Counted from the first letter of the stretch, positions 17,955-41,683 are shown. The stretch: 64,000 nucleotides of DNA from a virus (IMGVR_UViG_3300028883_000048:1-64000), one strand, 5' to 3'. The notes: generated by a model not told the origin, from the letters alone. A program made the numbers and translations.

Positions 17955-19448
17955 TCAATGCCTTAACTCTCGCGCTCTAACGGCGTGTACGCCCCTTGGT
18001 GGCAGATTGAACTCGACCTCGGTTTTTGGCAAATATCTATAATCAATTATTATCATTCTGCTATATATAATTATTTTTTTGATAGCTGTCATGTAGTATT
18101 TTGTTCTAATGTCATCTGGCACATCTAACGAAAAATCCTGAAACCTGTCGATCAGCTCATCAACATCAAGAATCAGGCTGTCTGATCTAATATCCCTTTG
18201 CTGTAGCTCGTCGATCTCTGTTTTTATTTTGTCGATGTTTCGCTTACAGTCATTGAGATCAACTACCCCTGCTTGAATCGCGTCGACCAGATTATTTTTT
18301 TGTTTTATCAATTCCTGTAATCTTAACCGATCGCCTGTCAGATCGGTCTTATTATATTCTCTGATCTTCGCATCGAGTAATCTCTTTAGCTTCTTTTTGT
18401 CCCCAGTCTGGCTCCTGATGTTATTATCGATCGCCTGATTTATCAACCATTGAGGTCTGCTCGATGATCTCGGGCAAGCCCGCTTACCATTACGGAAAGC
18501 ATTATAACACCTATAACCGAGATATCTATGGGGGTAACCATGACTCCCCCCAGCGCTCATGGCGATAATTCGGCTCCCACAATATCCGCAAATCATCATC
18601 GGAGCTAAAAGGGATTTTTGCCTCGGTCGATGTACTCTTGTTTTATAGGATTCAAGTCGATTTTGCAGGTCAAAAAATTCATCCTCTGATATTATTGGCT
18701 CATCGATCTGAACGCATTTTATGTACTGTCCATCAATATTTATAAGGCCCGCGTATAGCGGGCGTCTGAGCATCAAGCTCACCTGATAACCATATATGTC
18801 AATTCCCGCCCCCCTGAGCATCGAACCAACAGTAATATAATCATGGTCGAAGCCAGCGACAAAGACCCGGCGAACAATATCAGCATCCTTGCCTTGAATG
18901 ATCTTATTTCTCTTTTTGCCCCCCGGGGTAAGAATATAATGATTGCGATCGTATTGATAACCGATCGGCAATCTGCCATGAATATAGCCCTGTTGCAACC
19001 TGATTTTCCTGCCCTCGCTACACAAATCCTTAATATATCTTCTCTGATGCTCTGATATAACCCCTTTGATCTGAGCAAACATCTGACCATCTCGGCTTGA
19101 GAGATCAAGCTCACCATATTTTGTTATTACCTTTATATTATGATCTTCTAATCGAGGGAATATCCTGCCAGTCAGGTCTTTTACCGATCGGGATAACCGA
19201 TCTTGATCATAGACAAATAATGATGACCCGTCGACCTCACCTGTATCAACCTGAGCTAATAGAGCTATGAGCTGAGGTCTGGCCGTGATGTTCTCTGCTG
19301 ACAGCCCGGGTTCTCTATAGAGATCGATAGCCGATTTATGGGCTCCGGCCTGTTTACATTGGGCGAGTGCCCATTTCTCTTGTTTTTCGAGAGATGTATT
19401 TTTGATCTGATCTGGTGTGCTGACTCTTATGTATATCAGATATCTCAT
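17955..19448 (-). CDS. int: Large serine recombinase (phage integrase)
   Basis: 497 residues. The resolvase domain starts at the N-terminus (YIRVSTPDQ, catalytic Ser10) with YREPGLSAENITARPQL and YDQDRLSRS holding the conserved arginines. The recombinase domain follows (about residues 150-260), then a zinc-ribbon (MICGYCGSRII ... CPRSSS, about residues 288-335) and a long helical coiled-coil region (about 345-420) typical of large serine integrases. It should integrate phage DNA into the host chromosome at attB. It is on the - strand, downstream of the OB-fold gene and away from the repressor. Confidence 0.95.
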   Translation of the reverse strand: MRYLIYIRVSTPDQIKNTSLEKQEKWALAQCKQAGAHKSAIDLYREPGLSAENITARPQLIALLAQVDTGEVDGSSLFVYDQDRLSRSVKDLTGRIFPRLEDHNIKVITKYGELDLSSRDGQMFAQIKGVISEHQRRYIKDLCSEGRKIRLQQGYIHGRLPIGYQYDRNHYILTPGGKKRNKIIQGKDADIVRRVFVAGFDHDYITVGSMLRGAGIDIYGYQVSLMLRRPLYAGLINIDGQYIKCVQIDEPIISEDEFFDLQNRLESYKTRVHRPRQKSLLAPMMICGYCGSRIIAMSAGGSHGYPHRYLGYRCYNAFRNGKRACPRSSSRPQWLINQAIDNNIRSQTGDKKKLKRLLDAKIREYNKTDLTGDRLRLQELIKQKNNLVDAIQAGVVDLNDCKRNIDKIKTEIDELQQRDIRSDSLILDVDELIDRFQDFSLDVPDDIRTKYYMTAIKKIIIYSRMIIIDYRYLPKTEVEFNLPPRGVHAVRARELRH

Positions 19449-20502: not shown

Positions 20503-20943
20503 TTAATCATTTTTAAACAACTCACTATAATCTCTAATTAGCTCATATATTTTCTTCTTCCTTTCTGGCTTCATGTCTGCCGTTAACTCGCGTATTTTCT
20601 TATCGAGTTCATTCTCGTTGTTTGTCGTCGAGTCTATGATTTCCCGAAATCTGCTCATAAATTTCGTTAATTCGGCTCTGTCGACTGCCTGAGATATTCC
20701 GGTGATATAATAATCCAGACTATCGGGAAGAACTCGAGCCAATACAACCCATGTCTCAATCGATGGCGATGTTCCACCAGATAATATTTTCCGGAGCCCT
20801 ACCAAAGATATATCAAAGCCGTTCCCCCCGGCCTCTAACATCGCCTGTCGTAGCGCGACATCGGTATCGTAACCCCCTTTGAGCTTGCCCTGTCTAAGAC
20901 GATCAGCAACCTCTTGTCGTAGTTTGCTGTTTTGTTTTGGCAC
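20503..20943 (-). CDS. Phage repressor (CI-like, helix-turn-helix)
   Basis: 146 residues, GTG start at 20943 fixed by AGGAGG 9 bases upstream. The N-terminal part fits a lambda-repressor-like HTH (FDISLVGLRKILSGGTSPSIETWVVLARVL: recognition helix near SPSIETW). The C-terminal part is a helical, charged region (DKKIRELTADMKPERKKKIYELI), probably for oligomerisation; no LexA-type protease domain is present. It is divergent from the 21175 HTH gene and flanks a perfect operator-like dyad, the usual arrangement of a lysis-lysogeny switch. Confidence 0.75.
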   Translation of the reverse strand: MPKQNSKLRQEVADRLRQGKLKGGYDTDVALRQAMLEAGGNGFDISLVGLRKILSGGTSPSIETWVVLARVLPDSLDYYITGISQAVDRAELTKFMSRFREIIDSTTNNENELDKKIRELTADMKPERKKKIYELIRDYSELFKND

Positions 20944-22225: not shown

Positions 22226-23239
22226 ATGACAAAAGACAGATCAATATTAGATAAGTTGCCCGATCGGGTGACTCATCGAGATTTACAAAAACCCGAAATC
22301 AAAGAGCAGGTTAATAGCCTGCTCTCATCGGGTCATTTTAATATCGCGGCACCTGCCAGATATATCAATCAGATACCCGAGGACATTGAACTCGTTTTTC
22401 TCTACACACAACTAAGCATCGAAAACAAAGATTATTATCCGTTGGAATCATATTATAAGGAAGGTAATAGCTGGAAAAAAACTCTACAAGGTTATTGCCT
22501 CACCTTTAATGGTCTTAATCAATTATCACAGCTCGCCGGGTTAGTGATGAGGATTAACGAGATACCGGGTTCTATTGCTCGCGATAAGGACAATCGATTG
22601 ATTGAAATCGGCTATGAGGTAGAGGCCGCGGTTTTAGGTTATGATGGGACGGCTCGTAACTGTCCTGACCAGAAGTGGTTTGATTTTGCCGAGATGGAAT
22701 ATCAGGCCAATCAGATCAATAAAGAGGCCGATCGACTTAAGGCCTATAATCGCATAAATAAAATACGTGAGCACTCGAGAACCAGAGCTCTCTCAGGGGC
22801 AAAAGCTCGAGTTATAAGGCGAGTCCTGTGTATTCCTATTATCATGCAACCCAAAGACCTTGACAAGCTATGGGTTGTGATTAAAGCGATACCTCGAAAT
22901 ATAGTTAATCTCAATGATCAGATATTACTCTCTAAGGCCAGTAACGCTCAGCGTTTATTGACCGGAAACCCAATCGAGACAGCTCAACCCACCGAGGCCG
23001 AGATCATCGAACCACAACCGACACCAAAGCCAGAGCCTCAGCCTATTCCCGAGAAGCCGAAAGTTGATGATGATATTGATGACCAGCTTAGGGCTCTCAT
23101 GGCCGATACTGGCTATCAACCTAAAACACCGATCGATAGGATGACCGGGCAACGCAAGCTGGAATTCAGGGATTTTTTAATTGACCTGAAAAAATCACAG
23201 ACAGATCAGGGAGGTCAAGATGCAAAACAATCCGCTTAA
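22226..23239 (+). CDS. Putative single-strand annealing recombinase (RecT/Rad52-like)
   Basis: 337 residues from the ATG at 22226 behind AGGAGGTTTGAGAAC. The pattern LNQLSQLAGLVMRINE near residue 110, a strand-turn region with GYEVEAAVLGYDGT, and the Arg/Lys-rich helix RTRALSGAKARVIRRVLCI (about residue 185) are like phage annealing proteins, whose core ends in a helix of this type. The C-terminus is a Pro/Glu-rich linker and a short helical tail. It stands just before SbcD and SbcC genes, matching phage recombination modules where an SSAP works with an exonuclease. The family call is by pattern and context. Confidence 0.5.
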   Translation: MTKDRSILDKLPDRVTHRDLQKPEIKEQVNSLLSSGHFNIAAPARYINQIPEDIELVFLYTQLSIENKDYYPLESYYKEGNSWKKTLQGYCLTFNGLNQLSQLAGLVMRINEIPGSIARDKDNRLIEIGYEVEAAVLGYDGTARNCPDQKWFDFAEMEYQANQINKEADRLKAYNRINKIREHSRTRALSGAKARVIRRVLCIPIIMQPKDLDKLWVVIKAIPRNIVNLNDQILLSKASNAQRLLTGNPIETAQPTEAEIIEPQPTPKPEPQPIPEKPKVDDDIDDQLRALMADTGYQPKTPIDRMTGQRKLEFRDFLIDLKKSQTDQGGQDAKQSA

Positions 23240-24422
23240 AATAATAACCTTTTCTGATCTTCATGCTCGACGTGATAATCTGTTCAAGGTCGAGCGAGTG
23301 CTCGATAGTATAATAAATAACGCAAAATCATTACAGCCTGATATGATCTTGTTCGCTGGTGATCTTTCAGATGGAGAAGTAATTGTCAATGCCAGTTCAC
23401 CATTATATATTCTAATTGATAAAATTGTCGAACTGAGCCAGATAAGCCCGGTCTACCTTTTACAGGGAACGCCCTCGCACGATCGACCGGGCTTTCTGGA
23501 TATTTTTAAATTACTACCTCAATCCGGGAAGACAATTCATATTCTTGACCGGCTTGGTCATATTGTTAATGTCGAATTAGGTGACTACTTGGTTCAGATA
23601 TTTGGCGTACCGGGATTAACGAAATCAAACCTGATACAGGAGGCGACTGCCCGGGGCTTAAGGCTCTCGACCGAGGAAACAAATCAGGTTTGCGCTGATC
23701 TCTTAAAAGAAACCCTATTACTCAATCAGATTGCCCATCACGAGGCTATTAGAGAAAATTCGAATGTTATAAATATTCTCTTGGGTCATTTTTCTGTTGG
23801 CGGTTGTAGGTTGTCAACTGGACAATCTCTTTTGGGCGGTGATATCTCAATACCGCTTTCTGATCTCCTAATGGCCGAGGCAGACCTATACTGTCTCGGC
23901 CATATTCATGAACCCCAATATTTGGCTAAAAACGTATATTATAATGGTTCATGCTTTCCATGTAATTGGGGTGAGGTTGGTCGGAAGAGTGCCTATTATA
24001 TCGAGATGCTACCCGGGGAGATCAGGCTCATGAAAGAACTTGATCTGCCATATCCACCGATGCTCGACCTGCCTATAACTATCCACGATAATGGAAAGGT
24101 CGATGTCACCTATACAGAAGCAATAACAGGTTTTGTAGGAGAAGTTAGGGTTAAAGCCACCTGTCAACCTGAGATCAGCTCAGTTATCGACAAGACGTGG
24201 ATAGAATCGTTTTTAAAGGATATCGATGTCAATCCCATTACTTTAAAGATCGAAAAGCTGGTTGAGACCCCCTATCGGGCTCGCTGTGAAACAATATCAA
24301 AACTCAAGACCAATACCGACAAGCTAAGGGCTTGGGGTCAAGTATATGAAAGAGATATCCCCTATACGGTTATAAAACGGCTTGAAGAATTTGAGGAAAC
24401 AGGAGGCGGTCATGCGTCTTAA
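23220..24422 (+). CDS. sbcD: SbcD/Mre11-like DNA nuclease
   Basis: 400 residues. All metallophosphatase motifs are visible: FSDLHARRDN near residue 12, FAGDLSDGE (about 45), GTPSHDR (replacing the usual GNHD, about 84), LGHFSVGG (about 190) and GHIHEPQ (about 228). With the SbcC partner encoded next it makes a nuclease that processes DNA ends and hairpins. It overlaps the preceding gene by 20 bases and the SbcC start by 11 bases, so the set is co-translated. Mre11's GNHD Asn is not kept (TPSHD), which may affect activity. Confidence 0.88.
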   Translation: MQNNPLKIITFSDLHARRDNLFKVERVLDSIINNAKSLQPDMILFAGDLSDGEVIVNASSPLYILIDKIVELSQISPVYLLQGTPSHDRPGFLDIFKLLPQSGKTIHILDRLGHIVNVELGDYLVQIFGVPGLTKSNLIQEATARGLRLSTEETNQVCADLLKETLLLNQIAHHEAIRENSNVINILLGHFSVGGCRLSTGQSLLGGDISIPLSDLLMAEADLYCLGHIHEPQYLAKNVYYNGSCFPCNWGEVGRKSAYYIEMLPGEIRLMKELDLPYPPMLDLPITIHDNGKVDVTYTEAITGFVGEVRVKATCQPEISSVIDKTWIESFLKDIDVNPITLKIEKLVETPYRARCETISKLKTNTDKLRAWGQVYERDIPYTVIKRLEEFEETGGGHAS

Positions 24423-26688
24423 ATCATTGAGACTCAGGGGAGCAATCGGATTAAAGAAGGTCGGCGACGAGATTGAAATCGATTTCAATAAATTTTCGCC
24501 GGGTCTAATTTGTCTGATTGGCGAGAACGGAGCTGGTAAAACAACACTGGTTGAGAACCTACATCCGTTTCCGCGCCTGATATCTCGATCGGGTGCCCTG
24601 TATAATCATTTTTATTCTGCTGATTCTTATCGTGATCTGACCGTTGAGATCGATGGAGCTGAATGGCGGTTCTATCTGGTCATCGATGCCGAGAGACAAA
24701 AGACGGAATCCTATGTTTATAAAAACGGTCTGGCAATGAATGATGGAAAGCGACCGTCTTATGAGCGTATTGTCGAGGAATTGTTTGGCGACCCTGAGCT
24801 ATATTTTAAATCAGTTTTTACAGCTCAGGGCGAAACCGGATTGCTGGGCATCCCGGCCAGTAAGCGCAAAGAGCTGTTTTCTAACCTGCTTGATCTTAAT
24901 CAATATCAACCAATCCACGAATGGGCGAAAACAGAGCTCACTGGTGCCAGATATTATCTTGATGTGATTAATAAAAAAATCGGCGAGTACAGAGAGAAAC
25001 TAAAAAACCGAGAGACCATCATCAATGACCTTGATGATATTAATAATCAAATTGAGTTCTATAACAACCAGATCGCTGATCTTAAGCAAGATCTGCATAA
25101 CCATGAGGCAATGCGTGATGAGGTTAATGGGAGAGTTGTTCAACAAAAACAACTCTTGCAAAGACGGTCTGAACATGAGGTTAATATCCAGAGTCTTGAG
25201 ATTGATAGCGAAAGACAGATAAGCGAGCTCAGAGATCACAATGCCAGCCTTGATCAGAAACGCATTCAACTCCAATCAAAAGCAAAGCTCTATGAGACTC
25301 GCTTAAAGATCAGGGTAACCGACGAGATGATCGAAAAAGAAAACGAGTATAGGCGTTTGACCAGTGAAATGACTGATCTAAAAAATCAACTCTCTGAACT
25401 GGGGATAAAGTTTACAACCGAGATCGATAACCTAAAAGATCGAATCACTGTTAGAAAAAAGCGTTACGCCCGGGCTGAAGCTGATTTAAAAAACAAACAA
25501 GCACTGACACAGGCTCTCACTGAGGTTCCATGTTTCGATCATAAAGAGTTTGTCTCTGTTTGCCCATATTTAGAAATGGCTCGAAAGGCTGAGCTTGCGT
25601 TGCCGGACATTAAAGACGGGCTGAATATGATTTGTGGCTCCCTTAAGGGATTAGAGGACGAGCTTGGTGTTCATCAAGAGGTTTATCGATCTGAAAGAGA
25701 CGAAATTAAAAACAAAATAGACCATAATTTTGATGCGCTCGAGCTCCTTGGTTATAAGGCTCCTACTCATGGTGTTAGCTGGCATGACCTTAAAGCTCAA
25801 TATGACCAAGCTGATGTGTTATTAACAGAAACCCAAAGCTCTATAAATGACTTAACCGAACAGGTTAATAATAATCTTCAAAAAATGTCAGATGTCCAGC
25901 GTGATACAATGAGCAAGGTCAATAAATCGAAAGTCGAGATACAAAATCTTAACAGTTTAATAGATACCAATCTATTAAAAAATGTTACTGATTTAGATGC
26001 TCAAATCGATGCAATCAAAACAGACATCGATAACGCTCAGACAAAACTCCAAACATGGGAACGGTCAAAGGGCTCAACCGAAAATGAACTCAAACAGCTT
26101 AACGAACTCAAACAACAACTCAAACAAGATCAAAAAGACCAGATCGAGTTATTGGAAAAGGTCAGAGATTATGATCTTCTTAAGACAGCGTTTGGTCAAA
26201 AAGAGGGTATTCCGGCCTTAGAGCTGGAAAACGCTTTGCCGTCAATAGCTGAGATCGCTAATGATATCCTATCAGGATTTGATAAGAGCCTGAGAATCCG
26301 GTTTGATCTAACAAAACCAACTGCCGATGGCAAGAAACAGCTTGAGACCCTCGAGATAATGATCATTAACAGCGATGACAACGAACTGAGATTAGAAAAC
26401 CTCTCTGGTGGTGAAAAGGTCTGGATAATAACCTCGATTCAAAAAGCGATCGCGGTATATCTCAGAGACTACTCTGGTCATATAACTGAGACCGTGATAG
26501 CCGATGAATGTGATGGACAACTCGACCCGCAAAGAGCGATGGCCTACTACGAAGCAACCAAACAGGCTCACGAACTGACTGGCGCATATCATACGATCTT
26601 TATAACCCATCGACACGAAATCGCCATGGCCTGTGATCAGCGTATTGAGCTCGTTTGTGATGGTTGCGGGGTTAAGGAGGTTTATTAG
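24412..26688 (+). CDS. sbcC: SbcC/Rad50-like ATPase
   Basis: 758 residues, ATG at 24412 behind AGGAGG. Walker A IGENGAGKTT (about residues 36-45), ABC signature LSGGEKVWI and Walker B/D-loop region VIADECDGQLDPQ near the C-terminus, H-loop ITHRHE. Between them lie long coiled coils. Rad50 proteins normally carry CxxC at the hook tip. Here the middle has C374-F-D-H377 and C384 instead, with no CxxC. It should power and clamp the SbcD nuclease. Size is short compared with bacterial SbcC (about 1000), as in phage gp46-type proteins. Confidence 0.9.
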   Translation: MRLKSLRLRGAIGLKKVGDEIEIDFNKFSPGLICLIGENGAGKTTLVENLHPFPRLISRSGALYNHFYSADSYRDLTVEIDGAEWRFYLVIDAERQKTESYVYKNGLAMNDGKRPSYERIVEELFGDPELYFKSVFTAQGETGLLGIPASKRKELFSNLLDLNQYQPIHEWAKTELTGARYYLDVINKKIGEYREKLKNRETIINDLDDINNQIEFYNNQIADLKQDLHNHEAMRDEVNGRVVQQKQLLQRRSEHEVNIQSLEIDSERQISELRDHNASLDQKRIQLQSKAKLYETRLKIRVTDEMIEKENEYRRLTSEMTDLKNQLSELGIKFTTEIDNLKDRITVRKKRYARAEADLKNKQALTQALTEVPCFDHKEFVSVCPYLEMARKAELALPDIKDGLNMICGSLKGLEDELGVHQEVYRSERDEIKNKIDHNFDALELLGYKAPTHGVSWHDLKAQYDQADVLLTETQSSINDLTEQVNNNLQKMSDVQRDTMSKVNKSKVEIQNLNSLIDTNLLKNVTDLDAQIDAIKTDIDNAQTKLQTWERSKGSTENELKQLNELKQQLKQDQKDQIELLEKVRDYDLLKTAFGQKEGIPALELENALPSIAEIANDILSGFDKSLRIRFDLTKPTADGKKQLETLEIMIINSDDNELRLENLSGGEKVWIITSIQKAIAVYLRDYSGHITETVIADECDGQLDPQRAMAYYEATKQAHELTGAYHTIFITHRHEIAMACDQRIELVCDGCGVKEVY

Positions 26689-26883: not shown

Positions 26884-27559
26884 ACTAAAACCCAAGGTGA
26901 AAAAATGGAACCATGAGGACTTAGTTCAAGACCTTGCTGAATGTAAGGGGACATTTTTTTACAATGTCCCCCTCGGTAGTGTCTTGTTTGGTATCTATGC
27001 GGGAAAAGGTCAAGGTACTCCAATCGCCGATGTGCTGGTCGTTAAACCATCGTATACTCAATTCTGTGTATCCATATTCGAGATCAAGGTCACTCGAGCC
27101 GATTTCATGTCTGATATCAGATCAGAGAAATGGCGCAAATATCTACCTCATTGTCATCGGTTTTATTTCGCTACCCCTCAGGGATTGGTTCACAAAAAAG
27201 AGATACCCGACGAGGCCGGGTTGATAATCAGGAGTGACAAGGGATGGACGACTACCAAAATGGCATGGCCTCAAACAGAAATCGAAATCCCCTATGAGAC
27301 AATGATGGCATTGGTGTTTATGAAGAACCGATCTCTACGCCGAGAGAGAGCTGTTGAGGATGTCGGCTATTGGAAACGATATCAACGCAGTGTTAGAAAC
27401 ACTACTAAGAGGTTTGGTAAAAAACTCGGTTACGCCTATGGCAAGCAAAAAGCGTATGAGGAACAATGCGATTGGGTTAAGATGCTGGTCAGGGAGTTAG
27501 AGGAAAAGAAAAACCTATTAGACGAGCAACTTAAGCGAAAGGAGGCCAGCATTGTTTGA
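26876..27559 (+). CDS. MmcB-like PD-(D/E)xK nuclease-fold protein
   Basis: 227 residues. The centre IADVLVVKPSYTQFCVSIFEIKVTRADFMSDIRSEKWRKYLPHCHRFYFATPQGLV matches the MmcB/DUF2138-like DNA repair family in arrangement (key residues D, then E-x-K at EIK, and the downstream RxD/KWxxYxxxCxxFYFA block). This fold cuts DNA. The C-terminal part is a long charged helix. Next to SbcC and an SSAP, it likely serves DNA repair or recombination in the phage. Confidence 0.7.
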   Translation: MTKLKPKVKKWNHEDLVQDLAECKGTFFYNVPLGSVLFGIYAGKGQGTPIADVLVVKPSYTQFCVSIFEIKVTRADFMSDIRSEKWRKYLPHCHRFYFATPQGLVHKKEIPDEAGLIIRSDKGWTTTKMAWPQTEIEIPYETMMALVFMKNRSLRRERAVEDVGYWKRYQRSVRNTTKRFGKKLGYAYGKQKAYEEQCDWVKMLVRELEEKKNLLDEQLKRKEASIV

Positions 27560-28436
27560 TCGAATCGATAAAGGTCTCTATTGGGACAGGGCTTGGTATC
27601 TCGTTCATGGCTGTACGCCTGTATCAGATGGTTGTGATAATTGCTGGGCGGCTAAAGCATCCTGCATGAGGGCAAAACAATCAAACCCGAAAATCAGTCA
27701 GGTCAATAGTGGCCTGACTGATGATGGGGGGAAGTTTAACGGCAACATCAGGTTCATGGATAGAAATTTAGGTCTCCCGATTAAGACAAAGAAACCAACT
27801 GTTTGGGCGATCTGGAATGATCTATTTCACGAAGATGTCGATTATAAGTTTATCTCTAAGGCGATCTGTGTAATGGCATCGACAAGCGGTTACCCTTATA
27901 ATCGTAATCATATTTATTTATTATTAACAAAGCGACCTCATATCCTATTAGATTATTTTCGTTGGTGTAGAGAAAACCCCGAGCAGTTTATTCCCCCTGA
28001 CATCCCCGGCTTATCATCTAATAATCATATTCGTATAAATATGCCTATGTCTAATATATGGCTCGGGACATCAATCGAGGACAACGAGTCAGCGTCTTAT
28101 CGACTGCCAGCTTTATATGAGGCTAAACAAAACGGTTATGCTGGTAAGATATTCGTATCGGTTGAACCAATACTGGAACAGGTCGATCTCACTGGCTGGT
28201 ATGAGCATCTTGATTGGGTTATTGTCGGTTGTGAGACCGGGGCTAATCGTCGGGCTTGTAATTATCAATGGGTACAAAACATAGTTGATGGTTGTGTTGC
28301 CAATAAAGTGCCATGTTTTGTCAAACAGTTACCGGTAACAACTGATATGAAGCACTGGAAGATATCAAAGAAAATCGATGAGTTTCCGCTATTTTTACAA
28401 CGTCGAGAGATACCGGAGATCGGGGGCTCACGATGA
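27552..28436 (+). CDS. Phage Gp37/Gp68 family (DUF5131) protein
   Basis: 294 residues, TTG start at 27552 behind GGAGG with 6-base spacing, overlapping the previous gene by 8 bases. N-terminal GCTPVSDGCDNCWA (Cys20, Cys27, Cys30) and WYLVHGC, WNDLFHEDV, LLLTKRPH, LGTSIEDNE, VSVEPILEQVDL and VIVGCETG are hallmark blocks of this family. It is common in phages, has Cys spacing reminiscent of radical-SAM enzymes, and its reaction is not established. Here it follows DNA repair genes. Confidence 0.88.
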   Translation: MFDRIDKGLYWDRAWYLVHGCTPVSDGCDNCWAAKASCMRAKQSNPKISQVNSGLTDDGGKFNGNIRFMDRNLGLPIKTKKPTVWAIWNDLFHEDVDYKFISKAICVMASTSGYPYNRNHIYLLLTKRPHILLDYFRWCRENPEQFIPPDIPGLSSNNHIRINMPMSNIWLGTSIEDNESASYRLPALYEAKQNGYAGKIFVSVEPILEQVDLTGWYEHLDWVIVGCETGANRRACNYQWVQNIVDGCVANKVPCFVKQLPVTTDMKHWKISKKIDEFPLFLQRREIPEIGGSR

Positions 28437-32835: not shown

Positions 32836-33558
32836 ATGATAACAAATAACAGGAAGTTTGATACCGGGGCGATGGCGAAAGCCTTGGAGTATTTTCGGCA
32901 AAAGAGAGAGTTAAGCCAGAGGGATATGGCGTTGTTATGTGATGTCTCGGGCACGTCGATTCATCGGCTTGAGACCAATCAGGTCAATAGGATTCACTTT
33001 AACACCTTAAAGCGAATCTATAAAGGCCTTGACTTTTTAAACAACAATGCCGGGCTCACCAATCACGAACTATTTAAGCAAGCTCTTGCGATGCCTGAGC
33101 TGAGACCCACCAGCACGCTCACAACCAAAGACGTTGACTATATCCGCGAGGTTGTCAGACAAGACAGACGCTCCCGGAGGATGGGACGAGCTCAATATGC
33201 AAATTGTTTTAAAATCAACACGAGATTGATCTGGCGTTTAGAATCAGAAGGGTTTACCCGGATGGCCGAAAACGTCTTTGAGAAAGCCAAGACCTTACAT
33301 GAAGCTATATATCAAGCTCATACCGTAAAGGTTATGCCCCCCGCTCCCATCGACAAGAGAACATCAGATATGGGGCTTGACGTTCAATGGTCTAAAGACC
33401 CTCAGGATGACCCGATTGTGATTGTTAAGCTCAAACTATCAGAGATTAAGACCTTGAGCTCAATCCTCGAAAAGGTTAAGATGGCCGTTAAGAACATAAG
33501 ACCCCTTTCACTACCATTAGACACAACCGTTGCTGAAGCATGGCGAGGACAAACATAA
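32836..33558 (+). CDS. XRE-type helix-turn-helix regulator
   Basis: 240 residues. Residues about 14-70 (LEYFRQKRELSQRDMALLCDVSGTSIHRLETNQVNRIHFNTLKRIYKGL) are a clear lambda-repressor-like HTH. A second segment (RRSRRMGRAQYANCFKINTRLIWRLESEGFTRMAENVF) looks like a second, degenerate HTH. The C-terminal part is strand-rich. It sits alone behind a leader hairpin, and may control middle or late transcription. Confidence 0.65.
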   Translation: MITNNRKFDTGAMAKALEYFRQKRELSQRDMALLCDVSGTSIHRLETNQVNRIHFNTLKRIYKGLDFLNNNAGLTNHELFKQALAMPELRPTSTLTTKDVDYIREVVRQDRRSRRMGRAQYANCFKINTRLIWRLESEGFTRMAENVFEKAKTLHEAIYQAHTVKVMPPAPIDKRTSDMGLDVQWSKDPQDDPIVIVKLKLSEIKTLSSILEKVKMAVKNIRPLSLPLDTTVAEAWRGQT

Positions 33559-33573
33559 GAAAGGATTTTGAAC

Positions 33574-34029
33574 ATGGCTATATATAAAAAAACATATTCT
33601 GACCCCCCGGGTGATGACACCTATGTTGTGATAGGCAGAGCTGAACCAATCCCGGCTGATAAACTCGACCCGGGCAACAAGTACGATGACGGTAAAGTTA
33701 GATATGATCTTATTCCGCCTTATGTTTTAAATCAGATCGCTCAGGTTTTTACCTATGGGGCGAATAAATATGATCCCCATAATTGGGAGAAGGGGATTAG
33801 ATGGTCGCGGCTTATAGGGGCTATCTATCGACATATCGAAGCATTCAGGAACGGCGAGGAAATTGACCCGGAGTCTGGCCTACCTCACCTGTCTCACGCT
33901 CTTACCGAGTTGGTCATGCTCGCCCAGATGGTCAAGATATTCCCCCAAGGTGATGATCTTGAGATTAAACCAATTACGGATGTTAAATTTCGGATGGATT
34001 TCGACAATGAGCCCGACCTCGCATACTGA
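33574..34029 (+). CDS. dATP/dGTP diphosphohydrolase-like protein (DUF5664/MazG-like)
   Basis: 151 residues from the ATG at 33574. The core KVRYDLIPPYVLNQIAQVFTYGANKYDPHNWEKGI ... LIGAIYRHIEAFRNGEEIDPESGLPHLSHALTELVMLAQM matches the N-terminal dATP/dGTP diphosphohydrolase domain of phage proteins, with His and Asp/Glu metal ligands (H and E in RHIEAF, E and D in GEEIDPESG, H in HLSHAL). It would hydrolyse purine deoxynucleotides, lowering host dATP/dGTP or adjusting the pool. The 7-deazaguanine genes lie 1.4 kb downstream. Confidence 0.75.
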   Translation: MAIYKKTYSDPPGDDTYVVIGRAEPIPADKLDPGNKYDDGKVRYDLIPPYVLNQIAQVFTYGANKYDPHNWEKGIRWSRLIGAIYRHIEAFRNGEEIDPESGLPHLSHALTELVMLAQMVKIFPQGDDLEIKPITDVKFRMDFDNEPDLAY

Positions 34030-35345: not shown

Positions 35346-35379
35346 ATCGCTGGCTGATCCTCTCGGGTTGGTCAGCGAT
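35346..35379 (+). other. Long RNA hairpin in the leader of the ParB-like gene
   Basis: ATCGCTG and CAGCGAT enclose an inner arm; pairing continues through G-T wobbles to a TCTC loop, giving about 15 pairs. The wobbles only pair if the RNA is copied from the + strand direction, so it should work in the mRNA of the 35398 gene. The start ATG is 19 bases after it. Confidence 0.65.
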
Positions 35380-35397: not shown

Positions 35398-36042
35398 ATG
35401 ACAACTAAGAAAAAACTATTGACCAGAACAAAGAGCAAGGCAAAGCCCGATAATCCTCTTGATGTTAAGATCATCGAGTCGGTTGATATTGACATCAATA
35501 GCCTGAAACCTCATCCCCTACAGGCTGATTGTCGGACAATAAGTGAGGCTGAATTCAATGCCCTTGTTGAGCATATTAAACTCCGAGGTTATGGCGACCG
35601 AATAAAGGTCAATGTCAAGACAAACCGGATTATTGACGGACATTCACGTTGGAAAGCCCTTAAGAAATTAGGATTTAAGACCATCCCGGTTGAGGCCTAT
35701 GACCTTCATGGACTTGAAGAGGATGCGGCCTTTATATCCTTCAATGGCAATATGTTTCGAGGTCATTTCAAACCAAAGATCGGAGAGATTTTAAACGAGA
35801 TAGAGGCCGGGCTCCCTGACCTATACGCCGATCTGTGCTTTGAGACCGTCAAGCTCGATATCGTAGTTGATGAATGGCAAGCTGATATCGATAAGATGGA
35901 AAATCTTGAACCCAAAGACAGCCTTGATGATGGTCTGGTGACCGTTAAATATATGATGCCCCCTGAGGTGAAGGATGACTTTCTGGCCTCGGTTGGTAAA
36001 ATCCTCAACAATAAGCTGTTTCGGGAGGTCAAGGTCGCATGA
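35398..36042 (+). CDS. ParB/Srx-like domain protein
   Basis: 214 residues. ParB-like nuclease-fold signature: INSLKPHPLQADCRTISEAEFNALVEHIKLRGYGDRIKVNVKTNRIIDGHSRWKALKKLG, with DGHSRW (residues 80-85) as the active-site-like motif. There is no ParA gene, so it is not plasmid partition. It overlaps the DpdA gene by ATGA, so the two are co-translated. In the bacterial dpd cluster DpdB is a related ParB/DndB-type protein; I infer a helper role for DNA modification. A weak ribosome site precedes it. Confidence 0.8.
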   Translation: MTTKKKLLTRTKSKAKPDNPLDVKIIESVDIDINSLKPHPLQADCRTISEAEFNALVEHIKLRGYGDRIKVNVKTNRIIDGHSRWKALKKLGFKTIPVEAYDLHGLEEDAAFISFNGNMFRGHFKPKIGEILNEIEAGLPDLYADLCFETVKLDIVVDEWQADIDKMENLEPKDSLDDGLVTVKYMMPPEVKDDFLASVGKILNNKLFREVKVA

Positions 36043-36860
36043 TAGCGAATGTATTGGTCTCTTATGCTTATTGGAATGATCAGGTTCTGGAACTTAAAAA
36101 GATACCTGAGGACAATCTTAGGCTTGTTATTGATAGCGGGGCTTTTACAGCTCATACATCGGGCAAGCCCATAAAACTCGACGACTATTGTCATTTTATA
36201 AAGAATATACCGATCAAACCATGGCGATATTTTAATCTCGATGTAATCGGTGACCCCAAGGCGACTTATGAAAATTATAAGATCATGCTCGATCGGGGTT
36301 TTAAGCCGATTCCTATTTTTACTCCCGGCGAAGATTGGTCGATGTTTGATAAATTTTATAAAACCTCAGATGTTGTCGGTATTGGGGGACTGGTTGGTTC
36401 GGGGAAAAAGAAAATTAATTACATTAAGCGAGCCATGCAGGTTGTCGGTGATCGCCGAGTTCACCTGCTTGGTGTTTCTCATGGTGATATTATTGCTTAT
36501 TTTAAGCCCTATATGTGTGATTCATCCGATAACAGCACAGCTCGCAGGTATGGTGTCCTCATGCTTTATCATGGTAATAATGTTTGGAGTAAAATTAAAA
36601 GAAAAAGTATGAGCGATTTACCTTCGCCCCAAATTCAAAGAGCTATAAGGTCGTATGGCTATGACCCCGTAATGCTGGGCAGGGAACATAATTGGCGGGG
36701 CACATGGTCTTATGCTAATTTACTCACAAGGCAGTGTTATTTAAGGTATAGTGTTGAAGTGGAAATTATATTTAATACTCGATATTTCATGGCAATACAA
36801 GGGAGTGAAATCCCTGAGATTGTAGAGGTGTTCAATAGAGAGGTGAAACTTGCCGCGTAA
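36039..36860 (+). CDS. dpdA: DpdA-type DNA 7-deazaguanine transglycosylase (phage TGT-like)
   Basis: 273 residues. Homologue of tRNA-guanine transglycosylase adapted to DNA. VIDSGAFTAHTSG (residues about 30-42) is the substrate-pocket strand with the catalytic acid, and FNLDVIGDPKATYENY (about 65-80) carries the nucleophile Asp block; GVLMLYHGN and GVSHGD form further barrel elements. No CxCxxC...H zinc site of classic TGT is present and it is short, as in phage DpdA. It should swap guanine in DNA for preQ0 made by the following genes. It overlaps the ParB-like gene and QueC. Confidence 0.85.
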   Translation: MIANVLVSYAYWNDQVLELKKIPEDNLRLVIDSGAFTAHTSGKPIKLDDYCHFIKNIPIKPWRYFNLDVIGDPKATYENYKIMLDRGFKPIPIFTPGEDWSMFDKFYKTSDVVGIGGLVGSGKKKINYIKRAMQVVGDRRVHLLGVSHGDIIAYFKPYMCDSSDNSTARRYGVLMLYHGNNVWSKIKRKSMSDLPSPQIQRAIRSYGYDPVMLGREHNWRGTWSYANLLTRQCYLRYSVEVEIIFNTRYFMAIQGSEIPEIVEVFNREVKLAA

Positions 36861-37578
36861 ATCTGAAAAGGTTGATAAGCTTATGCTCCCGGATAAGATA
36901 TTTCTCGAAGAGGGGGCAATCGTTTTACTGAGTGGCGGTCTGGACTCCACGACTGTTTTGGCTTATGCTCAAAAGCTTCATGGTGCGATATTGGCTATAA
37001 GTTTCGATTACGGCCAGAGACATAAAATCGAATTACAAAGAGCCAGTAAAATAGCATCTAAATATGGCGTTGCTTATACTGTTGTTAATCTCCCGTTTTT
37101 TAAAAAGATCGGGCACTCTGCCTTAACTGATCTCAAAATTGATGTCCCCGAAAATAGATCAGAGATCGGTGATGATCTTCCGGCAACTTATGTTCCAGCT
37201 CGAAATATTGTGTTTCTCTCAACCGCTTTAGCTTATGCTACAGCTTTACACGCCAAACGGATTTACATCGGTGCTAATGCTCTTGATTATTCCGGTTACC
37301 CTGATTGCAGACCAAATTTTATAAAACAGTTTGAAACAATGGCGAGACTTGGAACCGACAGCGATATCGTAATTGATGCCCCCCTGATTGATCTCACTAA
37401 AGCGGAAATTATAGAGCTCGGCACCCGGCTGGGAGTTGATTATTCAATGACTTCAAGCTGTTATAATCCTCAGGGTGATCTGGCTTGTGGGGTTTGTGAT
37501 AGCTGTTTGCTGAGGAAAAAAGGATTTGCTGAGGCTGGAATTCCAGACCCGACAAAATACATGGAGGCGACTTGTTAG
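36850..37578 (+). CDS. queC: 7-cyano-7-deazaguanine (preQ0) synthase QueC
   Basis: 242 residues. Probable TTG start at 36850 behind GAGAGGTG, overlapping DpdA by 11 bases; an ATG at 36883 is an alternative. PP-loop motif LLSGGLDSTT (residues about 26-35), SFDYGQRHKIEL, YVPARNIVFLS, and a C-terminal zinc cluster CYNPQGDLACGVCDSC. It converts 7-carboxy-7-deazaguanine to preQ0 with ATP and ammonia. There is no fused glutamine amidotransferase (Gat) domain, which argues against archaeosine-type DNA. Confidence 0.95.
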   Translation: MPRKSEKVDKLMLPDKIFLEEGAIVLLSGGLDSTTVLAYAQKLHGAILAISFDYGQRHKIELQRASKIASKYGVAYTVVNLPFFKKIGHSALTDLKIDVPENRSEIGDDLPATYVPARNIVFLSTALAYATALHAKRIYIGANALDYSGYPDCRPNFIKQFETMARLGTDSDIVIDAPLIDLTKAEIIELGTRLGVDYSMTSSCYNPQGDLACGVCDSCLLRKKGFAEAGIPDPTKYMEATC

Positions 37579-37988
37579 TAACTAAAGAGTTTCAGTTTTG
37601 TGCGGCTCATCGATTGCTTGATTACGCGGGCGCTTGCGCTAACCTACATGGTCATAATTATAAGGTTCATGTGACCCTTATGGGAGAACCCGGGGCTAAT
37701 GGTATGGTTGTTGATTTTAAAGAGATTAAAAGGGTTGTTGGTCGTCTTATAGATACCCTTGATCATAATATCCTGATCAACAACAGAGATCAGGCGTTGA
37801 TCGATTTTGTCAATAAGGAATATGAGGCAGGGCGACTTAACAAAACCCCGATGGTTTTAAACTCAGACCCAACTGCCGAATATATTGCTGAGCTGATCAA
37901 AGAATACGCGACTGTTAATCTGCCCGATCACGAGGTTTATGGTGTCAAAGTTTGGGAGACAGATACCTGTTATGCAGAAGCGGTATAA
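37572..37988 (+). CDS. queD: 6-carboxy-tetrahydropterin synthase QueD
   Basis: 138 residues, TTG start at 37572 behind GGAGG and overlapping QueC by 7 bases. Zinc ligands His13, His26 and His28 in ACANLHGHNYKVHV, catalytic Cys22, and the conserved MVVDFKEIK and LDHNILI blocks. It converts dihydroneopterin triphosphate to 6-carboxytetrahydropterin, second step from GTP to preQ0. Confidence 0.95.
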   Translation: MLVTKEFQFCAAHRLLDYAGACANLHGHNYKVHVTLMGEPGANGMVVDFKEIKRVVGRLIDTLDHNILINNRDQALIDFVNKEYEAGRLNKTPMVLNSDPTAEYIAELIKEYATVNLPDHEVYGVKVWETDTCYAEAV

Positions 37989-38613
37989 AATAAACGAAAT
38001 ATTTAGATCGATTCAGGGAGAGGGATATCTGGCTGGAACTCCCTGTCTGTTTATCCGCTTTGCTGGTTGTAATATGGCCTGTCCGTTTTGTGATACCGAT
38101 CACTCGGTCAAGATGGAATTGACGGCCAATGAGATTTATGGTCGCCTTGTTGAACTCAATCCCAAGGCCAATATCTATTGGGTTGTTCTGACTGGTGGCG
38201 AACCTCTTTTACAGGTCGATACCGGGCTCTTAGAACTGCTTGGCGAATCTTATGAGATAGCCCTTGAGACAAACGGGACAGTAAAATTAGATGGCGAGCT
38301 GATGTTTGAGCATATTGCTTGTTCCCCAAAAGCTCAGCCAAAGGATTTACAGCTCTCGTATTGCCATGAGCTTAAGGTGCTATACCCGCCGATTGAGGAC
38401 AAAAACGGAAATCCCATTATCCCCGAGAGCTTTGATGATACGACTATTAGTGTTGATGGGGATTGTTTTTTGCAACCAGTTCAACCAATCAATCAAGGTC
38501 AGGTTGATCATAAAGCTTGGCAGGATAATATCCAGTCGACGGTCGAGAAAGTTCAGGAGCTCCCGGGCTGGCGATTGAGTTTGCAAATTCACAAAATGAT
38601 AGGACTGAGATAA
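37972..38613 (+). CDS. queE: 7-carboxy-7-deazaguanine synthase QueE (radical SAM)
   Basis: 213 residues from the ATG at 37972, which overlaps QueD by 17 bases. The [4Fe-4S] motif is CNMACPFCDTD (Cys33, Cys37, Cys40) after FRSIQGEGYLAGTPCLFIRFAG. Conserved LTGGEPLLQ and ALETNGT follow. It makes 7-carboxy-7-deazaguanine from the QueD product. The ribosome site (GGGAG) is 13 bases away, so translation is probably coupled to QueD. Confidence 0.94.
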   Translation: MQKRYKINEIFRSIQGEGYLAGTPCLFIRFAGCNMACPFCDTDHSVKMELTANEIYGRLVELNPKANIYWVVLTGGEPLLQVDTGLLELLGESYEIALETNGTVKLDGELMFEHIACSPKAQPKDLQLSYCHELKVLYPPIEDKNGNPIIPESFDDTTISVDGDCFLQPVQPINQGQVDHKAWQDNIQSTVEKVQELPGWRLSLQIHKMIGLR

Positions 38614-39555
38614 ATGCGAAAAAGATTTGTAACATGGGACGAGATCGACGAGATCATAAAAAAAGGTTTTTTAGATGTCTTTAATAGCGCATACGAAGCG
38701 AGTAAAAAGGGAAATCCCATCAGGCGTATTCCATCTATTTATGCTATCCCTCGCGGTGGTCTTTATGTGTTGAACCGGATAAGGGAAATATATCCGAAAT
38801 TAGATTACCGGGTTATTGACTCCCCTGAATATGCAGACTTGGTTGTTGATGATTTGATTGATTCCGGCAAAACGCTCGATGAGATTCTTCGTGTCAATCG
38901 TTCATTTACCCCCTTTGTCTTATTCGATAAACGACAAGACAACGAAAAAACCTACTACGTTTTTCCGTGGGAAGATGTTGACAAGGATGCTCAAGACCTT
39001 GTGACCCGAAGAATTGAAATGATTGGCGAAAATCCTCTCAGGGAAGGTCTTGTAAAGACCCCTGAGCGTGTTGTTAGGGCTGATAATGAGTTGTTCGCTG
39101 GTTATGAGGTAGATACCAAGGGAATGATCGACAAAGCCGTTTTCTCAGACGGCGGTGATCAGATGATTTGTCTTAACAACATCGAAATATACTCAACCTG
39201 TGAACATCATATTTTACCCTTTACAGGTGTTGCTCATGTTGGATATATACCCCGTGATGGTAAGGTCGTAGGCGTTTCCAAAATTGCCAGGGTGATCGAT
39301 GCCTTTGCCCGACGGTTACAGATTCAAGAGCGAATAACAGAACAGACCGCTAAGGCCTTATTTGACAACGAAAAACTTAACCCCCAAGGTGTTGGTGTTA
39401 TTATCGAGGCCTTCCATCTCTGCATGAGAGCCAGAGGCGTCGGTAAACAAAGATCGGTTATGACCACTTCGGCGATGCTCGGCTGTTTTCGAGACAACAT
39501 CGAGGTCAGAGAGGAATTCATGAGCCTGATCAAACTGACAAAGGCAGGTGTATAG
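38614..39555 (+). CDS. folE: Phosphoribosyltransferase-GTP cyclohydrolase I (FolE) fusion
   Basis: 313 residues in two parts. Residues about 1-120 look like a type-I phosphoribosyltransferase-like domain: YAIPRGGLYVLNRI and the PRPP motif VVDDLIDSGKT (77-87). Residues about 126-309 are FolE-type GTP cyclohydrolase I: zinc motif CEHHILPF (Cys196, His198/199), GYIPRDGKVVGVSK, LCMRARGV (Cys270), and VMTTSAMLG. FolE makes dihydroneopterin triphosphate from GTP, the first step of the preQ0 route. The start lies 1 base after QueE. The role of the N-terminal domain is not known. Confidence 0.9.
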   Translation: MRKRFVTWDEIDEIIKKGFLDVFNSAYEASKKGNPIRRIPSIYAIPRGGLYVLNRIREIYPKLDYRVIDSPEYADLVVDDLIDSGKTLDEILRVNRSFTPFVLFDKRQDNEKTYYVFPWEDVDKDAQDLVTRRIEMIGENPLREGLVKTPERVVRADNELFAGYEVDTKGMIDKAVFSDGGDQMICLNNIEIYSTCEHHILPFTGVAHVGYIPRDGKVVGVSKIARVIDAFARRLQIQERITEQTAKALFDNEKLNPQGVGVIIEAFHLCMRARGVGKQRSVMTTSAMLGCFRDNIEVREEFMSLIKLTKAGV

Positions 39556-39558
39556 GGT

Positions 39559-40071
39559 GTGGCAAGAAAACTATCTGACAAAAAACGTGAGGAGCTTTTT
39601 CAGGCTTGGTGTGAACGTCAAAGTGTTACGTTTGTGCGAAAAAAGTGTCGGGTTCATAACACAACTGTCAAACGCTATAAGAAAATCGATCAATGGGATA
39701 AACGACTTGAAGAGGTCAATCGGGAGACGCAAAGAAACCTCCATCAAACAATGGGGCAAAGGCGGGCTCAGGATATCGAGCTCGCGAGAAATATGCGACT
39801 TGGGATTTATAACGAAGTCGCTCAACGAATTAGAAATAGGCGCTTAGAAGATGTTAAATTCTCAGAACTGGTTACGGCTTATGTCCAACTTCACAAAGAC
39901 GAGCTCTTGCTCGAGGGCGAGGCGACTGAGCGTACTGATACTGCTGGCAGTGATGACAGCCAGCGTATTCGCGATGCCATCGAGCCAGTCCTATCAGAGC
40001 TTACACCAGATCAACAAAAACGACTCGCGGATAGAATTGCTGATGACTTCGAGCTTAGCGAGCAGGAATGA
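39559..40071 (+). CDS. terS: Terminase small subunit
   Basis: 170 residues with a GTG start at 39559 (site AGGG). The N-terminal part (KREELFQAWCERQSVTFVRKKCRVHNTTVKRYKKIDQWDKR) is an HTH-type DNA-binding region, the middle is helical for oligomerisation, and the C-terminal part is acidic. It overlaps the next gene, a terminase large subunit, by 29 bases. This order is typical for packaging modules. It recognises phage DNA for packaging. Confidence 0.7.
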   Translation: MARKLSDKKREELFQAWCERQSVTFVRKKCRVHNTTVKRYKKIDQWDKRLEEVNRETQRNLHQTMGQRRAQDIELARNMRLGIYNEVAQRIRNRRLEDVKFSELVTAYVQLHKDELLLEGEATERTDTAGSDDSQRIRDAIEPVLSELTPDQQKRLADRIADDFELSEQE

Positions 40072-41683
40072 GATTGATTCCGAAACCGGAATAGCTCAAG
40101 ATATTATAACAGCGATGACCCGGACAAAGTTCGGGCGCCATTGGCTAACCGAGCGATCGGTTAAATGGTTTGCGAAATATTATCTTGGAATCAACCTCTA
40201 TCCCCATCAAGTTGATTGGATAAATCATCTACTTAAACATCGACGGGCTGGTGTATTGGCTCCGGTCTCACATGGCAAGACCGTTGCTTTGTCAGAGGTT
40301 TTGGCTCTTTATCTGGTTGTTCAAAACCGTAATATCAGGATATTATATCTCTCGGCGACTGATGACCTTGCCAAAAAGAACCTGTCTGTTATAGCTCATC
40401 ACCTAAAATATAATGAACGATTAATTGAAGATTATGGCGCATTTTATCACCGGGACAAAACTTGGGAAGCCCGCAAATTAACTGTTGTTAGAGATCGGAT
40501 ATTAAAGGATTGTACCGTTGAATCGATTGGCGCAACTGGTGAAAAGACTGGTGGTCGATATGATGTTATCATCCTCGATGATGCTGTTACTGAGAAGAAT
40601 AGTAACACCGCGGCACAGAGGCTTAAACTACATAATATCATATTGGGTACCATAATTCAGCGTCTTGATCGACCCGGCTGGTTTTGGTTTATCGGTACAC
40701 GCAAAGATTACGCCGATCTATATAGCGAGTTCTTGGCTCTTAAGGGTATCTGGAATGTCATGATCAATAAGGCCATTATCCGATACCCGGAAAAATATGA
40801 GCTGGTTGAACTCCCAGAACCTATTGAACACGAAGACGGCACAACCGAAACCCATAGGCTGATCATCGAGGGCGACCCCGGGGAAGTTCTTGACCCGATT
40901 AATCGACCGATGGAATACCTGTTGCTGGAAAAAATGTCTCAGGGTTCCCGGCTGTTTGAGCGTGAATTTCAAAACAATATTACTGATAATGAAAATGCAT
41001 TATTTAAACTCGAATGGCTTGAACAGTGTCGTGATGAGAAGTTTAGCTATGCCAGTTTGGATTATAACATGACAGGCGGTAAGGTCATTCAGACAGGTTC
41101 ATTCCCTGATGCCAGTCACGATATTAATAATTATATCGCTAAGATATGTGGAACCGACCCCGCTATTGTAACCGATGAGACCGAGGCTGAGACCTCTGAC
41201 AGCTCATATTTTGTAAACTTCACGCTTGGCGTTCATAAGAACGGTAATGTCGATATCTTACACATATTTAAACACCGGGGCATGACCCCGAACCAAAAGG
41301 TTGAGTTTACAAAACAACATGATCTGGCTGTTGAACCTGATTATCATATGTACGAGAAAAACGCTTTCGGTTCGATGGATATCTGGAAGATCAGAGATGA
41401 GACCAATGTTCCGATTGTTCCCCATCATACTGGAAAGAACAAAAACTCCAGCTTTGAGGGCGTTCCCTATGTCTCTGTTCGGTTCGAGAACAAGAAGATC
41501 AAGTTGCCATATAAGACAACCCGGGATAAACATATAACGAATGATATGATCTCAGAGCTTAACAGGTTCCCGGGCGGTGATCACGATGATATGGTAATGG
41601 CGTTGTGGATTGCTATGGCTGGCGTAAAGCGCTTTATGCGCTTACAGGAAAAGAAGGCTAAAAAAGCGAAACGGGTAGCATAA
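40043..41683 (+). CDS. terL: Terminase large subunit (packaging ATPase/nuclease)
   Basis: About 546 residues from the ATG at 40043; the frame is open further upstream but that part overlaps the small subunit. Walker A-like LAPVSHGKT (residues about 72-80), Walker B VIILDDAV (about 175), RTKFGRHW at the N-terminus and a C-terminal RNase-H-like nuclease region (DPAIV ... FPGGDHDDMVMAL, acidic residues). Typical length. It pumps DNA into the procapsid and cuts it. Confidence 0.88.
   Translation: MTSSLASRNEIDSETGIAQDIITAMTRTKFGRHWLTERSVKWFAKYYLGINLYPHQVDWINHLLKHRRAGVLAPVSHGKTVALSEVLALYLVVQNRNIRILYLSATDDLAKKNLSVIAHHLKYNERLIEDYGAFYHRDKTWEARKLTVVRDRILKDCTVESIGATGEKTGGRYDVIILDDAVTEKNSNTAAQRLKLHNIILGTIIQRLDRPGWFWFIGTRKDYADLYSEFLALKGIWNVMINKAIIRYPEKYELVELPEPIEHEDGTTETHRLIIEGDPGEVLDPINRPMEYLLLEKMSQGSRLFEREFQNNITDNENALFKLEWLEQCRDEKFSYASLDYNMTGGKVIQTGSFPDASHDINNYIAKICGTDPAIVTDETEAETSDSSYFVNFTLGVHKNGNVDILHIFKHRGMTPNQKVEFTKQHDLAVEPDYHMYEKNAFGSMDIWKIRDETNVPIVPHHTGKNKNSSFEGVPYVSVRFENKKIKLPYKTTRDKHITNDMISELNRFPGGDHDDMVMALWIAMAGVKRFMRLQEKKAKKAKRVA

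Follow-up and report, generated by a model that had tools for sequence, protein, structure and literature searches.

Among the phage cassettes for 7-deazaguanine DNA modification, the closest described relative of the locus examined here is that of mycobacteriophage CRB2 (cluster B), in which the genes for a ParB-like protein, DpdA, QueC, QueD, QueE and FolE are followed by TerS and TerL, with overlapping genes, and for which the authors proposed ORF1 as a dpdB homolog (PMC6392294). Rosebush, from the related subcluster B2, contains dPreQ0 in its DNA (PMC6884629). A second arrangement is represented by the dPreQ0 or dG+ cassettes of the Queuovirinae (CAjan, NP1, VpKK5), which comprise the same enzymes in the order QueE-QueC-QueD-FolE-DpdA, located beside clamp and DNA polymerase genes and with no ParB-like gene annotated next to DpdA in the regions examined; NP1 carries a Gat-QueC. 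Both Rosebush and CAjan encode this enzyme set with no amidotransferase and have DNA that carries dPreQ0, accounting for about 28% (Rosebush) and 32% (CAjan) of G, and deletion of the CAjan DpdA abolishes the modification (PMC6884629). Protection in dPreQ0 phages is partial and depends on the enzyme: EcoRI and SwaI digest CAjan DNA completely, BamHI gives partial cleavage and HaeIII leaves it uncut (PMC6884629).

Purine phosphoribosyltransferases (PRTases) are also relevant to this comparison. The tubercidin pathway, which includes GTP cyclohydrolase, QueD-like and QueE-like enzymes, contains the purine PRTase TubE, a separate protein that makes the CDG ribotide for an antibiotic, in a pathway lacking DpdA (PMC6112128).

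The locus described here lies in a window of 64,000 bases (bases 1–64000 of a virus contig record of 66,583 bases, which may be incomplete). On the grounds of homology and synteny, it is likely to be a complete cassette for 7-deazaguanine modification of phage DNA, of the dPreQ0 type; the PRTase domain that it includes is graded separately below with respect to its role. This kind of cassette is already known, and the architecture is distinct in that it combines the CRB2-type gene order with a PRTase-FolE fusion, unlike CRB2 itself, whose FolE has about 188 aa and no PRTase domain.

Gene content and surroundings of the cassette

Six packed genes occupy positions 35398–39555 of the + strand, with junctions that are either overlaps of a few bases or abutting. 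The original prediction had listed the same six genes and a complete enzyme set from GTP to preQ0, and the open reading frames, profile matches and motifs agree with it. The features are as follows.

35346..35379, + strand: hairpin of 15 pairs followed by a T-rich stretch (consensus scan), putatively terminator- or attenuator-like, just 5' of the ParB-like gene
35398..36042, + strand: ParB-like protein, 214 aa, ATG start, directly 5' of dpdA
36039..36860, + strand: DpdA, DNA guanine transglycosylase, 273 aa (phrog_887, CAjan homology)
36850..37578, + strand: QueC, preQ0 synthase, 242 aa, TTG start (PF06508 1.3e-77; TIGR00364 above cut-off)
37572..37988, + strand: QueD, 6-carboxytetrahydropterin synthase, 138 aa, TTG start (PF01242, PTPS, 5e-34; TIGR03367 above cut-off)
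37972..38613, + strand: QueE, CDG synthase, radical SAM, 213 aa from the ATG at 37972 (phrog_2076 7.4e-33)
38614..39555, + strand: PRTase-FolE fusion gene, 313 aa
38614..38988, + strand: Gpt-type phosphoribosyltransferase domain, residues 1–125 of the FolE gene
38989..39555, + strand: GTP cyclohydrolase I (FolE) domain (PF01227 6.1e-64 at residues 129–306)
39559..41683, + strand: putative terminase small and large subunit genes, directly 3' of the cassette, in CRB2-like order

QueE also matches TIGR04508 (6.4e-33, under the curated cut-off) and has an alternative in-frame ATG upstream at 37939, and the FolE domain is matched in Foldseek by the GTP cyclohydrolase I of T. thermophilus (1e-23, 52% identity). 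The catalytic motifs are intact in QueC (SGGLDS and four Cys), QueD (HGHNY), QueE (CX3CX2C) and FolE (CEHH). Five enzymes with profile E-values of about 1e-32 to 1e-77, together with these motifs, exclude chance as an explanation for the cassette. The putative terminase large subunit has a weak profile match only.

The hairpin is situated within about 0.5 kb that hold no convincing gene. An Rfam search upstream of the cassette gave no match, and on this basis known RNAs, a preQ1-type riboswitch among them, were ruled out there; a scan for tRNA genes found none. Further 5', 1.4 kb from the cassette, a gene at 33568–34029 (+) encodes a dATP/dGTP diphosphohydrolase N-terminal domain (PF18909, 2.6e-32), which could influence dGTP supply. 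The window also encodes a portal protein, a Mu F-like protein, a prohead protease, a tail sheath and a tape-measure-like protein, which indicate a contractile-tailed phage. The phage may be temperate, as suggested by a large serine recombinase at 17955–19448 (−) (Resolvase 1.1e-21 plus recombinase zinc ribbon) and repressor-like HTH genes at 20503–20943 (−) and 32836–33558 (+). An SbcD/SbcC-like pair at 23220–26688 (+) consists of a calcineurin-like phosphoesterase and, after it, an AAA_23 ATPase, and a DUF5131 family protein (PF07505, 1.2e-44) is encoded in the early region at 27552–28436 (+).

DpdA, its ParB-like partner and the predicted base

The 273-aa protein is, by homology, clearly a phage DpdA. 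It matches phrog_887 ("queuine tRNA-ribosyltransferase") at 5.5e-34 and is 29% identical to CAjan DpdA over 191 aa (E 1e-22) and 27–30% identical to CRB2 DpdA (30% over 223 aa). Four residues, D32 (in DSGAF), D68, H142 and D161 (in CDSS), do not vary among 34 aligned sequences and also occur in the CAjan and CRB2 proteins; by analogy with tRNA-guanine transglycosylases (TGTs), we take D32 and D161 to be the likely acid/base and nucleophile. The AlphaFold model (pLDDT 93.6) superposes in BFVD on named phage DpdAs with TM up to 0.84 and on one uncultured-phage protein with TM 0.95. Among solved structures, unspecific remote TIM barrels were the best matches and solved TGTs matched poorly. The protein has no Pfam match in the profile search, the TGT profile PF01702 included, and lacks the CxCxxC zinc site; membership in the classical TGTs was accordingly rejected. 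Bacterial DpdA models match it only weakly.

The absence of the zinc site and the small size had been singled out in the original prediction, and both are real, but neither is unusual. CxCxxC is likewise absent from the DpdAs of CAjan and CRB2, which rules out zinc loss as a special feature of this protein, and phage DpdAs have about 260–330 aa. Since the CAjan enzyme is needed for modification and also lacks CxCxxC, these are family traits.

Loci of the same DpdA type were collected with the three closest DpdAs as query, an alignment of all DpdAs being too divergent for this purpose; 38 viral loci were recovered, which together with L003 comprise 34 distinct DpdA proteins. The bacterial relatives amount to a single MAG contig, so that no host can be inferred. 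A related arrangement with a separate PRTase gene occurs in L004 (IMGVR_UViG_3300012936_002705), which encodes a DpdA 46% identical to the window DpdA over residues 4–252 and differs in gene order (ParB-DpdA-QueC-FolE-QueD-PRTase-QueE, then terminase). Tandem DpdA genes occur in L028 (7995–9577) and in Microbacterium phage Megan (L015; 670–2543), possibly serving two target sequences or two bases. Two ParB-DpdA cassettes (L018, L050) encode FolE, QueD and QueE, with QueC not detected in the flanks examined; without QueC from the host, their pathway would end at 7-carboxy-7-deazaguanine.

The original prediction had noted the ParB-like gene, though not that it is the conserved partner of DpdA: it ends directly before dpdA in all 34 distinct loci of this type. 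The protein matches ParB_N at 4.9e-4, under the cut-off, and phrog_498/8071 (ParB/methyltransferase N-terminus) at 6e-12 to about 1e-11, and its profile also matches gp1 of Megan (56.7 bits) and gp1 of CRB2 (32.3 bits), each located 5' of dpdA. PADLOC gave matches to type II methyltransferase models only. The term DpdB-like therefore refers solely to the position and superfamily of the protein, not to a match with a DpdB model. Domains similar to it make up the N-terminal part of phage DNA methyltransferases (phrog_498), which fits a DNA-targeting role, and the constant pairing raises the question of whether phage DpdA needs this partner for target choice.

The enzymes that define the second group of phages in Hutinet 2019 (dPreQ0 type), namely FolE, QueD, QueE, QueC and a DpdA homolog, are all encoded in the cassette. 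FolE, QueD, QueE and QueC would convert GTP into preQ0, which DpdA, probably aided by the ParB-like protein, would exchange for guanine in replicated DNA, and the resulting resistance to host restriction would be partial and vary with the site. The unqualified resistance to many endonucleases put forward in the original prediction is too broad in view of the CAjan digests (PMC6884629). As the same prediction had stated, QueC has no Gat domain, and a search by model for two enzymes, QueF (PF14489) and DpdC (PF03883), found neither in the 66,583-base record, which may be incomplete. dPreQ0 is for these reasons the best prediction for the DNA base, and the earlier assignment of this base is well supported by gene content, homology to the DpdAs of dPreQ0 phages and synteny.

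Two other outcomes have to be considered. The base could be a further derivative of preQ0 (e.g., dADG or dPreQ1) made by an unrecognized virus gene or a host enzyme: many genes in the window have no family match, and a later-acting enzyme could be encoded in the host or beyond the end of a possibly incomplete record. We regard this as unlikely given that the record lacks QueF and DpdC and that QueC lacks Gat. The cassette could instead increase the queuosine of host tRNA through its preQ0 and have no part in DNA modification, a role proposed for phages with preQ0 genes but without DpdA (PMC6884629); here the cassette includes a DpdA homologous to the one needed for DNA modification and always paired with a ParB-like partner, which makes a tRNA role very improbable.

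A phosphoribosyltransferase domain fused to FolE

The last gene of the cassette had been predicted as FolE, which is correct for residues 129–306 but overlooked the N-terminal domain; the gene encodes a PRTase-FolE fusion. The first ~125 of its 313 aa correspond to a Gpt-type (xanthine-guanine) phosphoribosyltransferase, the predicted structure of which has pLDDT mostly above 90. A profile of 33 relatives matches solved purine/xanthine-guanine PRTases (1vdm 8e-17, E. coli Gpt 1e-12), and the nearest solved relatives act on guanine, xanthine or hypoxanthine. The domain has the features of the Gpt family (PRPP-binding motif, RGG loop and base-site Lys/Trp), sharing with E. coli Gpt the RGG loop, the DDxxDxGxT PRPP motif, the base-site lysine and PW(D/E).

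Across 94 domains, R47 G48 G49, D79 D80, D83, T87, K106 and P118 W119 E120 are 90–100% conserved. D83, at the catalytic position, is Asp in 93% and Glu in most others, and the base-site residues K106 and W119 are conserved at 90–95%; S84 (in DDxxDSGxT) is less conserved than the other ligand-site residues. In contrast to E. coli Gpt, which has a 22-residue insert relative to the profile of the clade, the phage domain is about 22 residues shorter in the stretch that separates the RGG loop from the PRPP motif. The R-to-DD spacing is 23–38 residues and the segment is missing throughout the clade; in Gpt this segment holds the flexible loop that closes over the active site. As the pocket residues are conserved but the loop segment is gone, the pocket is apparently under strong selection, and catalysis is uncertain.

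The distribution of the domain was examined by searching viral contigs with a five-sequence alignment via a generic PRPP-motif pattern, which gave 180 relatives. FolE is beside or fused to the PRTase in 74 of the 75 distinct loci among the best 80 of these 180, a ranking that favors close relatives of the query and so describes this clade as cassette-bound, not all phage PRTases. In the same best 80, DpdA is also present, on the stretch of DNA available, in 61 of the 75 loci, most of the other 14 being short contigs. The PRTase is fused to FolE in 76 of 101 PRTase ORFs, including those of the isolated phages NP1, PaMx25 and VpKK5 and others, where the protein is annotated simply as GTP cyclohydrolase. 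Stand-alone forms occur within the cassette operon in about a dozen ParB-type loci (L004 among them), and Flavobacterium phage immuto has one that adjoins FolE. In the PRTase tree, fused and separate forms are split by one well-supported branch (100/98), so that a single fusion or fission event suffices; the window PRTase is a long branch among the fused forms, in a tree for which the domain is short relative to the number of rows. No mention of a PRTase in phage 7-deazaguanine cassettes was found in the literature searched, and it may have been noticed before.

Possible roles of the phosphoribosyltransferase domain

One guanine is freed per preQ0 inserted and one GTP is used per preQ0 made. 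With 28,541 G per genome, a replacement of about 30% would release about 8,600 guanines per genome, and an assumed burst of 100 would give about 9e5 guanines per cell, near millimolar. The PRTase domain may capture the guanine freed by DpdA and convert it with PRPP into GMP, which host kinases would return to GTP for FolE; guanine removal could also pull forward a DpdA exchange that is possibly reversible. Salvage of DpdA-released guanine, with GMP synthesis as the predicted reaction, is the role we favor for the domain, as a hypothesis that falls somewhat short of being probable. Its extension to the family, namely that many phage DNA-transglycosylation cassettes carry a dedicated guanine PRTase, fused to or beside FolE, that returns the guanine expelled by DpdA to GTP, is offered tentatively.

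Several observations weigh against guanine salvage. The active-site-loop segment of Gpt is missing and the domain may be non-catalytic, hosts usually have their own Gpt/Hpt, and FolE is short and devoid of a PRTase in the dPreQ0 phage CAjan and in the related CRB2, which indicates that the domain is not required for modification. The main rival reading is that of a sensor, which would bind PRPP, guanine or a guanine nucleotide and regulate FolE output. GFRP offers a parallel, as it regulates animal GTP cyclohydrolase I, and both the loss of the loop segment in the whole clade and the position of the domain, fused to or adjoining the committed first enzyme, are consistent with such regulation; the conservation of D83 and of K106/W119, on the other hand, exceeds what a PRPP sensor alone would seem to need, and we consider a purely regulatory domain rather unlikely. 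It is less likely still that the domain turns a 7-deazaguanine (CDG or preQ0) into a nucleotide, so that the modified nucleotide could form before replication. In HGPRTs, the residue equivalent to D83 contacts N7, an atom missing in 7-deazaguanines. The PRTase moreover travels with DpdA (61 of 75 loci among the best 80 of 180), and since DpdA acts on bases in finished DNA a nucleotide route would be unnecessary. The precedent in favor is TubE, a CDG-specific purine PRTase whose pathway begins with the same three enzymes (PMC6112128).

Phage genome protection of this class is known, and the cassette described here extends it by a deeply diverged representative from a contractile-tailed virus. 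Most worth following is the PRTase, which is recurrent and points to an unstudied step, either the fate of the guanine released by DpdA or the control of flux through FolE during infection. The question can be tested in the isolated phages NP1, VpKK5 and PaMx25, in which the annotation "GTP cyclohydrolase" conceals the fused domain.
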